DNA of 64,000 bases, taken from Falsihalocynthiibacter arcticus. GTDB lineage: Bacteria; Pseudomonadota; Alphaproteobacteria; Rhodobacterales; Rhodobacteraceae. The notes under the pieces were generated by a model. It was not told the origin of the DNA. It ran no database searches and worked only from the letters and a program-made list of their open reading frames with translations. Location: the NCBI RefSeq assembly GCF_000812665.2, contig NZ_CP014327.1, positions 868,001 through 932,000 on the forward strand. Reading direction: 5' to 3'. How positions within the stretch are numbered: the stretch's first letter is position 1; each line of letters starts with the position of its first letter. A program made the translations under genes and the position numbers. Shown piece by piece: positions 14,934-25,690 of this stretch.

Positions 14934-15505
14934 ATGGTTGTTCTCAACAAAATCTACACCCGCACGGGTGACGCTGGTCAAACCGCACTGGGGAATGGCA
15001 CTCGCGTCGATAAATACGATGCGCGCGTAAATGCATATGGAACGGTCGATGAAACCAATGCGACCGTCGGGCTTGCACGGCTCCACGCCGAAGGTGAAAT
15101 GGACGTACAGCTCGCACGCATTCAAAACGATCTATTCGATCTAGGGGCCGATCTTTGTCGCCCAGATTTGGAAACAGACGCGACGGCGGAATACCCCCCC
15201 TTCGGATGAACCATGCGCAAGTCGACCGGCTTGAGGCCGAAATTGACGCCATGAATGCACATATTCCGCCATTGCGCAGCTTTGTTTTACCCGGAGGAAC
15301 ACCCCTCGCAGCACAACTTCACCTGTCGCGAACGGTGTCCCGCCGCGCCGAACGCCTCACCGTTGAACTTGCGAGCCTCGAATCTGTAAACCCTGCGGCT
15401 GTGAAATATCTAAACCGTTTGTCAGACTGGTTTTTCGTGGCCTCACGTGCCGCAAATAAAAACAGCGCGAATGATGTGCTTTGGGTTCCTGGGGCAAACC
15501 GTTAG
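14934..15505 (+). pseudogene. PduO-type cob(I)alamin adenosyltransferase, frame broken at a C7 tract
   Basis: This enzyme transfers adenosyl from ATP to cob(I)alamin to make coenzyme B12. The first frame (MVVLNKIYTRTGDAGQTALG, then VDETNATVGLAR) carries the ATP-binding N-terminus. A second frame continues with MNHAQVDRLEAEIDAMN and finishes SRAANKNSANDVLWVPG, the expected C-terminal half. The switch is needed at 15194-15200, seven C residues; one extra C or two fewer would restore about 190 residues. Every other part looks intact, so an indel artefact or very recent mutation is likely. The product would serve the B12-dependent mutases of the ethylmalonyl-CoA pathway, to which Mcd in this window belongs. 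Confidence 0.85.
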
Positions 15506-15647
15506 CGCCAACATCGAAAAAACGCCGCGTCCCAAGGGATAGACCGTCGATTTTGCTCTATTTTCTGTCGCCCCAAAAGGCTAGATAAAATCGAGAGCTT
15601 GTTAGGTTCGCATTTTTGCGATCATTGAAACTAAGGGAATACGCACT

Positions 15648-18214: not shown

Positions 18215-18402
18215 AACCCACCTCACTAATTTTCGACTCACCCAAGACCAATTTGCGCGCGACCTCTTGCCAAATCCCTAACCTTAAAATTAGCGCTATC
18301 TTGAAACGTGAGTCTCTTTACCGGAGGGAAACGAAACGCCCCTTGCATAGACGCTGCGGCGCGGCATATTCTTGGGCCGAATTCAAAAGAGAAGTTGAGC
18401 CA

Positions 18403-21313: not shown

Positions 21314-23032
21314 TCAAACAGGGAGCCCAACCACAAAACGCGCGCCCAAGGGGTCGGAGGTGATATCAGCGTCTGTCGGGCGAATGTTTTCCGCCCAAAT
21401 CACGCCGCCATGGGCTTCGACGATTTGCTTGGAAATTGCCAAGCCTAGACCGGAATTATTGCCGAATTGCCCAGCGGGGCGTTCAGAATAAAAGCGTTGA
21501 AAAATTTTGTATAATGCTTGGTCAGGAATCCCTGGGCCAGTGTCCTCAATTACTATAAGCACGCGATTTTCCCGTTTTCGCGCCCAAACTCGAATTGCGT
21601 CCCCGTCTTCGCAAAACGAGATCGCATTGGTAATGAGATTAACGAAAACTTGTGCCAAACGCGCCTCAAGACCGTGAATATGGATCGGTTCAGCAGGCAA
21701 GTCGGAAATGAACTCAACCCCCTTGGATTTCGCATCGCCACCAAGGTAATCGTTGATGTTGCCAAGCATTTTCAACAAATCAAACTGTTCTTCTTCTTCC
21801 CGGACAAGTTCGCTGTCGAGCCGGGAAGCGTTTGAAATGTCACTGACAAGACGGTCCAAGCGGCGCACATCATGGTCGATAACATCGAGGAGTTTGTCCC
21901 GCTGATCTTCCCGTTTTGCGACACGTAAAGTACCGACGGCAGATCGTAGGGAAGCCAAAGGATTCTTGATCTCGTGCGCGACATCGGCCGCGAATTGTTC
22001 GTTGCCTTCAATCCGATCATACAGTGCCGTAACCATTCCACGAAGCGCGCCGGAAAGACGTCCGATTTCATCTGGCCGCGCGGTTAGGTCGGGGATGCGG
22101 ACACGGTTCGGACTCATTTTACGCGCATTTTTGTCGCGTCCAAGCTCGGCGGCGGCAGCCAAATCCGAAAGCGGGTTGGCGATGGTTGACGCAAGTACAA
22201 GGCTTAACCCGACCGAGACGAGGATCGCGATTACAAACATTTGCAACACCTGCTCCCGCTCACTTCGAACCAGAAAATCTATTTCTCCTTCAGCGCTTGT
22301 CACGGCAACCGAACCCAAATTTACCCCGCCAACCAGAATAGGAGTGGCCACGGTAAACACTGCGCGACCTTGGGAGTCCAATCCGGTGTTCACTTGAGTT
22401 GAGCCGTCCGAGGTCTTCTGTACAAATTCCAGCGGCGGCTCAACGGTTGAGCCAAAACCATCGCTTTCGGTTTCCGAAGTAAACAGCCCAGAAACGCCTT
22501 CCCACATGGAATTCAAGAAATCTGTGATAAGCGTGCTGCGGGTGTTCTGAACCAATCCGCTTACTGGAGGTATGCCCGAGCGCTCGATCCCAATCGTAGA
22601 GGCAACGAGCGTTCCTTCGGGATTGTAAACATAGGCGTCAACGCCGGCAGGAAGCGACAGTTTTGCAAGATTTGCAAAAACAGATGCCCCATTAGGAAGG
22701 GTCTCTGCATCCCAAAAATGCGCTTCGAGTACGTCAGCGACCAGTTGTGTCTCAATGACAAGACCCCGCTCACGTTGCAACACAAGGCTGTCACGGAAAG
22801 GATTGAGATACAAAACACCCGCCACCAAAATGACGAGGGCCAATAAATTGAACGTGATAATTTTGCGCGCAAGTGGCGAACGGTTGAGGGAAATAAACCC
22901 GCGTTGCTCGCGCCTTTTGCGCAGCTCGCTTTCCACGCCACTGCTCGGCCCATCCCAGTCTTCACCGAGAACAACATTCGCTTCTTTTTGCATTTTTGTA
23001 TCGCGCACATTCTTACCCAAAGTTGGGGGCAT
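21314..23032 (-). CDS. chvG: Sensor histidine kinase ChvG
   Basis: Membrane kinase of the acid/envelope-sensing ChvGI (ExoS-ChvI) system, 572 residues. TM1 is at about residues 58-80 (IITFNLLALVILVAGVLYL), a periplasmic domain of about 200 residues follows, then TM2 near 255-277. HAMP is followed by the H-box AADVAHEIKNPLASLRSAV. The N-box holds NLITNAISFCEDG; DTGPGIP and GLGLAISKQIVEAHGG form the G-boxes. ATG 23032 shares its A with the chvI stop codon, giving translational coupling. Confidence 0.93.
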   Translation of the reverse strand: MPPTLGKNVRDTKMQKEANVVLGEDWDGPSSGVESELRKRREQRGFISLNRSPLARKIITFNLLALVILVAGVLYLNPFRDSLVLQRERGLVIETQLVADVLEAHFWDAETLPNGASVFANLAKLSLPAGVDAYVYNPEGTLVASTIGIERSGIPPVSGLVQNTRSTLITDFLNSMWEGVSGLFTSETESDGFGSTVEPPLEFVQKTSDGSTQVNTGLDSQGRAVFTVATPILVGGVNLGSVAVTSAEGEIDFLVRSEREQVLQMFVIAILVSVGLSLVLASTIANPLSDLAAAAELGRDKNARKMSPNRVRIPDLTARPDEIGRLSGALRGMVTALYDRIEGNEQFAADVAHEIKNPLASLRSAVGTLRVAKREDQRDKLLDVIDHDVRRLDRLVSDISNASRLDSELVREEEEQFDLLKMLGNINDYLGGDAKSKGVEFISDLPAEPIHIHGLEARLAQVFVNLITNAISFCEDGDAIRVWARKRENRVLIVIEDTGPGIPDQALYKIFQRFYSERPAGQFGNNSGLGLAISKQIVEAHGGVIWAENIRPTDADITSDPLGARFVVGLPV

Positions 23033-23733
23033 CAATCTTCGTTGTATCTATAGCCGATACCATAAAGCGTCTCAATTGCCGAAAAATCGTCATCCGCGGT
23101 CCGCATCTTCTTACGAAGCCGTTTGATGTGACTGTCGATCGTGCGGTCGTCGACGTAAACTTGATCGTCATAGGCGACATCCATCAACTGATCGCGACTT
23201 TTCACAAAACCAGGACGTTGGGCCAAAGCTTGCAGTAACAAGAATTCGGTCACAGTTAGGGAAACATCATTCCCTTTCCAACGCACAGAATGCCGCAATG
23301 GATCCATCCGTAAATCACCACGTTCGATAACTTTGGTTTCTTCGGTTTCGGCAATCTCTACACCGTTCATTGCTTCTTGCCGGCGCAAGAGAGCGCGAAT
23401 GCGTTCCACCAGCAAACGTTGGGAAAACGGCTTCTTTACGTAGTCATCCGCCCCCATGCGCAGCCCAAGAACTTCATCAATCTCATCATCTTTGGATGTG
23501 AGAAAAATAACCGGCATTGCGGTTTTTTGGCGCAGACGTTGGAGCAAGTCCATTCCATCCATGCGCGGCATTTTAATATCCAAAACAGCCATATCCGGCA
23601 GACTCTTGTTAAAAGCGTCTAGTGCGGATTGACCGTCATTATATGTTTCTACTTCGAAACCCTCTGCCTCAAGGGTCATAGCTACTGACGTCAGGATGTT
23701 CCTGTCGTCGTCGACCAAAGCGATCTTCGACAT
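23032..23733 (-). CDS. chvI: Response regulator ChvI
   Basis: OmpR-family transcription factor of 233 residues. The receiver domain has Asp8/Asp9 and phospho-acceptor Asp52 in [11 protein letters not shown], with Lys in DDYVKKPF. The winged-helix domain has [21 protein letters not shown] and [15 protein letters not shown]. It is partner of ChvG and is read divergently from pckA across a 358-base regulatory region. Confidence 0.95.
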
Positions 23734-23904: not shown

Positions 23905-23949
23905 GTTAGCGCTAAACGGTAACGCTAAACCCAAAATGTTAGCGCAAAC
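23905..23949. promoter_or_regulatory. Three LacI-type operator copies upstream of pckA
   Basis: GTTAGCGCTAAAC (23905-23917), GGTAACGCTAAAC (23918-23930) and TGTTAGCGCAAAC (23937-23949) are variants of a TTAGCG-CTAA palindrome with a central CG. The centres lie near -90, -77 and -57 relative to the predicted start. LacI-family regulators of the CceR/PckR group are known to control pckA in alphaproteobacteria; linking this motif to that regulator is an inference. The upstream position suits activation. Confidence 0.65.
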
Positions 23950-23966
23950 TGCGCGCCCCTGACCGC

Positions 23967-23994
23967 TTTTCAAACCGATCTTCCGTGCTACAAT
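23967..23994 (+). promoter_or_regulatory. Predicted pckA promoter
   Basis: TTTTCA (23967-23972), a 16-base spacer, then TACAAT (23989-23994). The start would be near 24001, about 90 bases before the pckA ATG. The weak -35 fits a promoter that needs an activator bound at the adjoining operators. The rest of the 23734-24091 gap shows only AT-rich sequence on the chvI side. Confidence 0.5.
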
Positions 23995-24091: not shown

Positions 24092-25690
24092 ATGACACAC
24101 GGTCGTGTGAACCCAACCTGTACCCTTGAAACACAAGGTATAAAGGGGCTGGGAAATGTCTATTATAACGATCTGGAACCTGCGCTCGTCGAGACTGCTC
24201 TCAAGCACGACGAAGGCACACTAGGCCAAGGCGGCACGCTTTTGGTCACCACTGGCAAACATACTGGTCGCTCGCCCAAAGACAAATTTGTGGTACAAAG
24301 TGACTCTGTAAAAGACGGAATTTGGTGGGAAAACAACGCCCCCATGCAAGAAGATAAATTCGACGTCCTGTATGCGGACATGCTCGAGCATATGAAAGGG
24401 CGCGACTATTTCGTCCAAGACCTTTATGCGGGTGCCGATGCAAGTCAGCGTCTTGATGTACGCATGGTCACAGAGCTTGCATGGCACGCGCTTTTCATTC
24501 GCCATATGTTGCGTCGCCCTGATCGCGATGAATTGGAGGATTTCCTTCCTGAGTTCACCGTTATTAATTGCCCGACATTCAAAGCCGACCCCAAGCGCCA
24601 CGGATGCCGTTCCGAGACCGTTATTGCCATGAATTTCGACCAGAAACTCATCCTTATTGGTGGGTCTGAATACGCCGGTGAAAACAAAAAATCCGTCTTC
24701 TCACTTCTCAACTACTTACTACCGGCAAAGGGTATCATGCCGATGCATTGCTCGGCCAACCACGCCCCGGGAAACCCCGTCGACACGGCCATTTTCTTTG
24801 GCCTCTCAGGCACAGGGAAAACGACCCTTTCTGCCGACCCCTCCCGCACCTTGATCGGCGATGATGAGCATGGCTGGTCAGATCGTGGAACCTTCAATTT
24901 CGAGGGAGGCTGTTACGCGAAAACCATCAATCTTAGTGCCGATGCAGAGCCTGAGATCTTTGAGACCACGCGGACCTTTGGAACTGTAATCGAGAATATG
25001 GTCTTTGATCCCGAGACCAAAGAGCTAGACTTCAAAGATGATAGTTTGACGGCCAATATGCGGTGCGCCTACCCGCTTCACTATATTTCGAACGCGTCCA
25101 AAAGCGCGCTTGGCGGGCATCCCAAAAACATCATCATGTTGACCTGCGATGCCTTTGGCGTTCTTCCACCAATCAGCCGTTTGACACCCGCGCAAGCAAT
25201 GTATCATTTCCTTTCCGGTTTTACATCCAAAGTGGCCGGCACAGAAAGGGGCGTGACCGAACCTGAACCTACATTCTCGACTTGTTTTGGCGCCCCCTTC
25301 ATGCCGCGCCGTCCTGAGATTTACGGCAACCTCCTGCGCGAAAAAATTGCGAAACACGGAGCGACATGTTGGTTGGTGAACACGGGTTGGACGGGCGGTG
25401 CCTATGGGACTGGTTCCAGAATGCCTATCAAGGCCACGCGGACACTTTTGACAGCGGCGCTCGACGGCTCCCTCGAGAAAGCGCGCTTCCGCAAGGATGA
25501 AAATTTCGGCTTCGACGTGCCGGTTTCCGTGGACGGTGTTGCAGACATCCTGCTTGATCCTCGACGGACTTGGGGCGATTCCGAAGCCTATGACCTGCAA
25601 GCCGCAAAGCTTGTCTCAATGTTTTCGGACAATTTCACACAGTACCTAGACTATATCGACGATGATGTTCGCTCTGCGGCAATCGGCTAG
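24092..25690 (+). CDS. pckA: Phosphoenolpyruvate carboxykinase (ATP)
   Basis: Converts oxaloacetate and ATP to phosphoenolpyruvate, the first committed step of gluconeogenesis. The 532 residues contain [13 protein letters not shown], the kinase loops [13 protein letters not shown] (Walker A) and LIGDDEHGW, and [13 protein letters not shown]. The start is ATG 24092 (MTHGRVNP), with GCGAGGAG eight bases upstream; a 24-codon extension is not conserved in the family. It is divergent from chvI and followed by a terminator shared with the TauE gene. Confidence 0.97.

Follow-up and report, generated by a model that had tools for sequence, protein, structure and literature searches.

The three palindromes located upstream of pckA in Falsihalocynthiibacter arcticus are very probably, as predicted from their sequence, binding sites of CceR (GapR), and we consider it highly likely that they serve as operators for this regulator, encoded elsewhere on the chromosome, which would activate pckA via a phased pair of sites. 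By its sequence, the site cluster is a further member of the known CceR/GapR regulon. The analysis puts the pckA gene of this genome into a known carbon switch, by which marine relatives of Rhodobacter change between sugar breakdown and gluconeogenesis, and it corrects which of the sites matter.

Palindromic sites in the pckA promoter region

The window, i.e. the entire 64,000-nucleotide stretch analysed here, corresponds to positions 868001-932000 (G000:C1) of a 4.33-Mb chromosome. The target gene, pckA, encodes ATP-dependent phosphoenolpyruvate carboxykinase (24092-25690, plus strand, start codon ATG at 24092; Pfam PEPCK_ATP, 719 bits). Direct reading of the sequence confirmed the initial annotation in that three palindromic sites (given here without strand) precede the -35 of this gene: site 1, GTTAGCGCTAAA (23905-23916), which contains a perfect 10-bp palindrome; site 2, GGTAACGCTAAA (23918-23929), the distal partner in a conserved phased pair; and site 3, GTTAGCGCAAAC (23938-23949), the proximal partner in that pair. 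Their centres lie at approximately -90, -77 and -57 from the inferred transcription start. The corresponding 10-mers are TTAGCGCTAA (23906-23915, exact), GTAACGCTAA (23919-23928, two mismatches) and TTAGCGCAAA (23939-23948, one mismatch), all CG-centred, with centre-to-centre distances of 13 bp between sites 1 and 2 and 20 bp between sites 2 and 3. Sites 1 and 2 had been described as directly abutting; the 13-bp spacing is correct, but the 10-mers are separated by three bases. A third register, CTAAACGGTAAC (8/10), lies between these two sites and overlaps both of them (within 23905-23929), hence alternative pairings of the half-sites are possible.

The promoter elements, located by consensus, are putative. 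Aligned by reading to the CTGTTC sequence and the TGTTAAG block of the relatives, the pckA promoter comprises a weak -35, CTTTTC (23966-23971, plus strand), and a -10, TACAAT (23989-23994, plus strand), with a 17-bp spacer. On the other side of the sites there is a divergent gene for an OmpR-type response regulator of the chvI type (23032-23733, minus strand), and the genes beyond it encode a sensor kinase, the C-terminal domain of an HPr kinase and RapZ, an arrangement consistent with chvI/chvG plus their usual neighbours.

A CG-centred inverted repeat of the form GTT N6 AAC is present at all three pckA sites as well as at the zwf, edd, gap and cceR sites discussed below. Compared with the motif [A/G/T]GTT N6-8 AAC[A/C/T], through which RSP_1663 is predicted to control PckA, Zwf, Mdh and FbaB (PMC4344238), site 2 is the weaker one, while sites 1 and 3 match at most positions. 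Judged by their sequence, the sites before pckA are real and look functional.

Scored against GTTANCGNTAAC with the CG centre required to be intact, the window contains 15 sites with a score of at least 8, compared to 13.5 in shuffled sequences, which is about the chance level (the chance expectation per window is 0.9 sites scoring at least 9 and 13.5 scoring at least 8). Nor is the window enriched in the 10-mer when up to two mismatches are allowed (23 found, 22.2 expected), and genome-wide, where the statistics are based on pattern searches and stretches of the genome, the 10-mer alone shows no enrichment (87 matches vs 282 for the reversed control). Only the extended motif and the clustering are informative. 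A triple of sites scoring at least 8 of 10 within 45 bp was found once in the window and never in 200 dinucleotide shuffles, and close pairs were found three times, against a shuffle mean of 0.08. The strict tandem CGCTAA N13-15 CGCTAA, tried as a genome signal, was rejected: it has just two matches genome-wide, both within coding genes, thus this pair is not widespread in the genome.

The two weaker copies proposed earlier near 15501 and 18290 do exist, namely GTTAGCGCCAAC at 15501-15512, before etfB (9/10), and ATTAGCGCTATC at 18289 (8/10), but their significance did not hold up, as such sites occur at about chance frequency and neither of these two is shared by the sister species. Both appear to be chance-level or lineage-specific, the one before etfB perhaps the latter. 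A weak site precedes etfB in about one third of the relatives; counterparts at -104 to -140 are seen in some of them, and none in the sister species. In the case of hbd, no counterpart site was found at the same place among the relatives examined.

A conserved phased pair of sites at a constant distance from the putative pckA promoter

A site with a score of at least 8 is present in 106 of 109 pckA promoters of the family, compared to 7.3 in shuffled sequences. The spacing to an upstream partner in these 109 promoters peaks at 20 bp (46 cases) and 21 bp (27 cases), together 73, against about 0.05 partners per spacing in the shuffles; a small number also occur at 31 and 40-41 bp. When the columns are anchored on the proximal site, a conserved CTGTTC is observed at +26 to +31 from the start of the site, followed by the TGTTAAG block, and these blocks are the putative -35 and -10, locked to the proximal site. 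In 70 of 75 relatives, 19-20 bp separate the centre of the proximal site from the -35 (with the consensus derived from the same alignment); in the window, site 3 is about 22 bp from the -35, i.e. about 2 bp further than in the relatives. What is constant at pckA across the family is two sub-consensus sites with a spacing of 20-21 bp, placed some 20 bp before the -35. A perfect score is not reached by any of the 106 proximal sites, and in their left half-site positions 2 and 4 are systematically non-consensus, with G/A and T/G replacing T and A.

In the window, sites 2 and 3 are the counterpart of this conserved pair, whereas site 1, with its perfect palindrome, is an additional site. The initial annotation had stressed multiple phased sites, of which the existence of more than one phased site is upheld; the phased pair, however, is the 20-bp one, and not the 13-bp one, which is off-phase and rare: a third site at 12-13 bp was found only in the records L114 and L124 among the relatives that were read. 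The activator-type arrangement, with the sites upstream of the -35 of pckA, is supported.

We infer the following mechanism. In the absence of the sugar signal, 6-phosphogluconate, CceR dimers would occupy sites 3 and 2, one each, on one face of the DNA and separated by two helical turns, with their centres at about -57 and -77 relative to the transcription start. Bound CceR would recruit RNA polymerase to the weak -35, turning on pckA and gluconeogenesis. A rise in 6-phosphogluconate would take CceR off the DNA, with a decrease of pckA expression as the outcome; CceR senses gluconate-6P, and its release from DNA by 6-phosphogluconate has been published, as cited in PMC5507952. Site 1, because its centre is only 13 bp from that of site 2, probably competes with site 2 or boosts local occupancy rather than binding a third cooperative dimer.

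The same region could be read differently, with CceR bound at the pair but chiefly repressing, or with the pair serving the divergent chvI operon as a shared operator, in line with the earlier suggestion of one decision point for chvI, HPr kinase and pckA. The sites do lie within the intergenic region shared by chvI and pckA, which are divergent in 79 of 80 named relatives, and for the same reason this adjacency is uninformative as a discriminator. On the other hand, the sites are located upstream of the -35, off the core promoter, and their distance is fixed with respect to the -35 of pckA but varies with respect to chvI (sd 18 bp), hence joint control of chvI or HPr kinase is not supported. 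Moreover, proteomics of a cceR mutant of P. denitrificans revealed a fall of PckA, together with a rise of Zwf and Edd (PMC11323563), which argues against a repressor. We regard this alternative as improbable, and prefer activation of pckA by CceR.

In Agrobacterium, pckA is induced by acid and has a link to ChvG/ChvI, and in the window the gene adjoins chvI, hence the repeats could also be thought of as sites for the ChvI response regulator, exerting acid or envelope control of pckA. However, CG-centred inverted repeats are the form typical of the LacI family (PMC4052901), the same motif precedes zwf, edd, gap, fba and a LacI-family gene, and it is missing from the pckA promoters in genomes that lack the LacI regulator. 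This is the least likely of all the explanations considered, and we therefore retain CceR as the regulator in question.

Among records of the chvI-pckA locus, L086 and L152 have titles that name Actinobacteria, Nocardioides marinus and Enemella evansiae, respectively, and yet bear loci of the Rhodobacteraceae type; at least the title of L152 looks wrong, as this record matches the family genome G003.

Identification of the regulator

A scan of the genome for the LacI helix-turn-helix domain yielded 13 matches, 12 of them above the curated cut-off, with one clear candidate for CceR (G000:C1:1356953-1357990, minus strand), 1.36 Mb into the chromosome. The gene carries a perfect site, TGTTATCGCTAACA, in its own promoter, and its orthologues are found across Rhodobacteraceae (61-89% identity, nearly full length). 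The likeness to CceR/GapR (RSP_1663) comprises the GTT N6 AAC form of the motif, the set of targets (pckA, zwf, edd, gap, mdh and fba; the published GapR regulon includes the first four and mdh, PMC4052901), a regulator gene that is not clustered with its targets, an autoregulatory site and a family-wide distribution, and we saw no feature contradicting it. The proposed orthology to RSP_1663 rests on the motif, the regulon, the autoregulation and the family-wide co-occurrence. The best match of the candidate (L069:2951-3991) among solved structures is PDB 3KJX (E 1e-168), a close full-length relative named just as a LacI-family regulator without function, the structure of which could directly serve as a template for the effector pocket of CceR.

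Other LacI-family systems with related roles differ from this candidate. PckR (SMc02975) of Rhizobiales is likewise predicted to activate pckA and to repress genes of the Entner-Doudoroff pathway, but it is reported to be non-orthologous, to recognize a different motif and to have orthologues only in Rhizobiales (PMC4052901); of the earlier assignment to a LacI-family regulator of a CceR/PckR group, the family and CceR are retained, and PckR is dismissed. The enteric Cra/FruR also represses glycolysis and activates gluconeogenesis, yet it is another protein (PRK11303, 78 bits against a cut-off of 385) with another effector. Among NCBIfam families with a name, GntR and IdnR are the nearest (the candidate scores 295 and 242 bits, short of the curated cut-offs, 400 and 500 bits), but these are local gluconate repressors, whereas CceR is a global switch. 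The operators of GntR/IdnR are of the related TTACCGGTAA type.

In 41 genomes of the family, with the site threshold set at a score of at least 8, a site precedes pckA in all 30 genomes that possess both pckA and a full CceR orthologue, compared to one of the eight without the orthologue. The single exception, G019, is a fragmented assembly, 91% complete, with a perfect zwf site, which suggests that its cceR gene was probably missed; without it the count is 0/7. The site before gap1, the first of two gap genes, is present in 16 of 24 genomes with CceR and in none of the eight without, while the zwf site is present in 24 of 31 and two of six, respectively, G019 being one of the latter two. These counts ignore kinship, and the genomes without CceR are, G019 apart, more distant (PckA 57-66% identical), so the co-occurrence partly reflects shared ancestry.

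The second-best match in the genome is a LacI paralogue 45% identical to CceR (G000:C1:1309829-1310824), the neighbours of which are genes for a dehydrogenase and a sugar-acid kinase-like protein. Its recognition helix is similar (VSKMTASRSLR against VSEMTVSRVLR), and it could share the CceR sites. As the main regulator at pckA it is very improbable, since no paralogue of this kind passes the threshold in the majority of the family genomes that carry pckA sites, as opposed to the CceR orthologue, which is present in nearly all of them, and since the perfect copy of the motif precedes the CceR gene and not that of the paralogue. We therefore attribute the main role at pckA to CceR.

Other members of the regulon and the layout of their sites

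Exact matches to TGTTANCGNTAACA in the genome are located before the candidate CceR gene, gap, edd and a glutamate dehydrogenase gene (gene identities by NCBIfam), and a one-base variant lies upstream of zwf. Less exact sites precede fba (two sites, 21 bp apart), mdh, the second gap gene and pntA. Central carbon genes, pckA among them, are preceded by sites of this kind. The exact CceR-type site upstream of the glutamate dehydrogenase gene lies at L064:2474-2487, and a near-perfect one at L066:3026-3039, 79 bp before the transhydrogenase gene pntA; both genes are possible additional members of the CceR regulon.

The layout of the sites differs between the target genes. The site of zwf is nearly always a perfect GTTAGCGCTAAC, present as a single copy, with the -35 and -10 typically just upstream, which places it at or just past the start. 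The site of gap1 is also single and near-perfect, and it overlaps the -10 behind a conserved TTGAC. By contrast, the adjoining gap2 exhibits pairs resembling those of pckA, spaced by 19-20 or 30-31 bp, upstream of the promoter. It may be, at even chances in our estimate, that paired, phased, sub-consensus sites fixed upstream of the -35 confer activation (pckA, gap2), whereas a single perfect palindrome over the -10 or the start confers repression (zwf, gap1). We found no description of this distinction in the papers on CceR/GapR that were consulted. If the rule is true, gap1 and gap2 would encode a glycolytic and a gluconeogenic GAPDH, respectively, driven in opposite directions by CceR, and one could tell the sign of CceR control from the DNA sequence by itself throughout a marine family that is abundant; the rule makes a testable claim on two adjacent genes. 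In this genome the two adjacent GAPDH genes are located at L059 (G000:C1:3083000-3090500), where gap1 has one perfect site near the start and gap2 has two sites spaced by 19 bp, 119-138 bp before its start codon.
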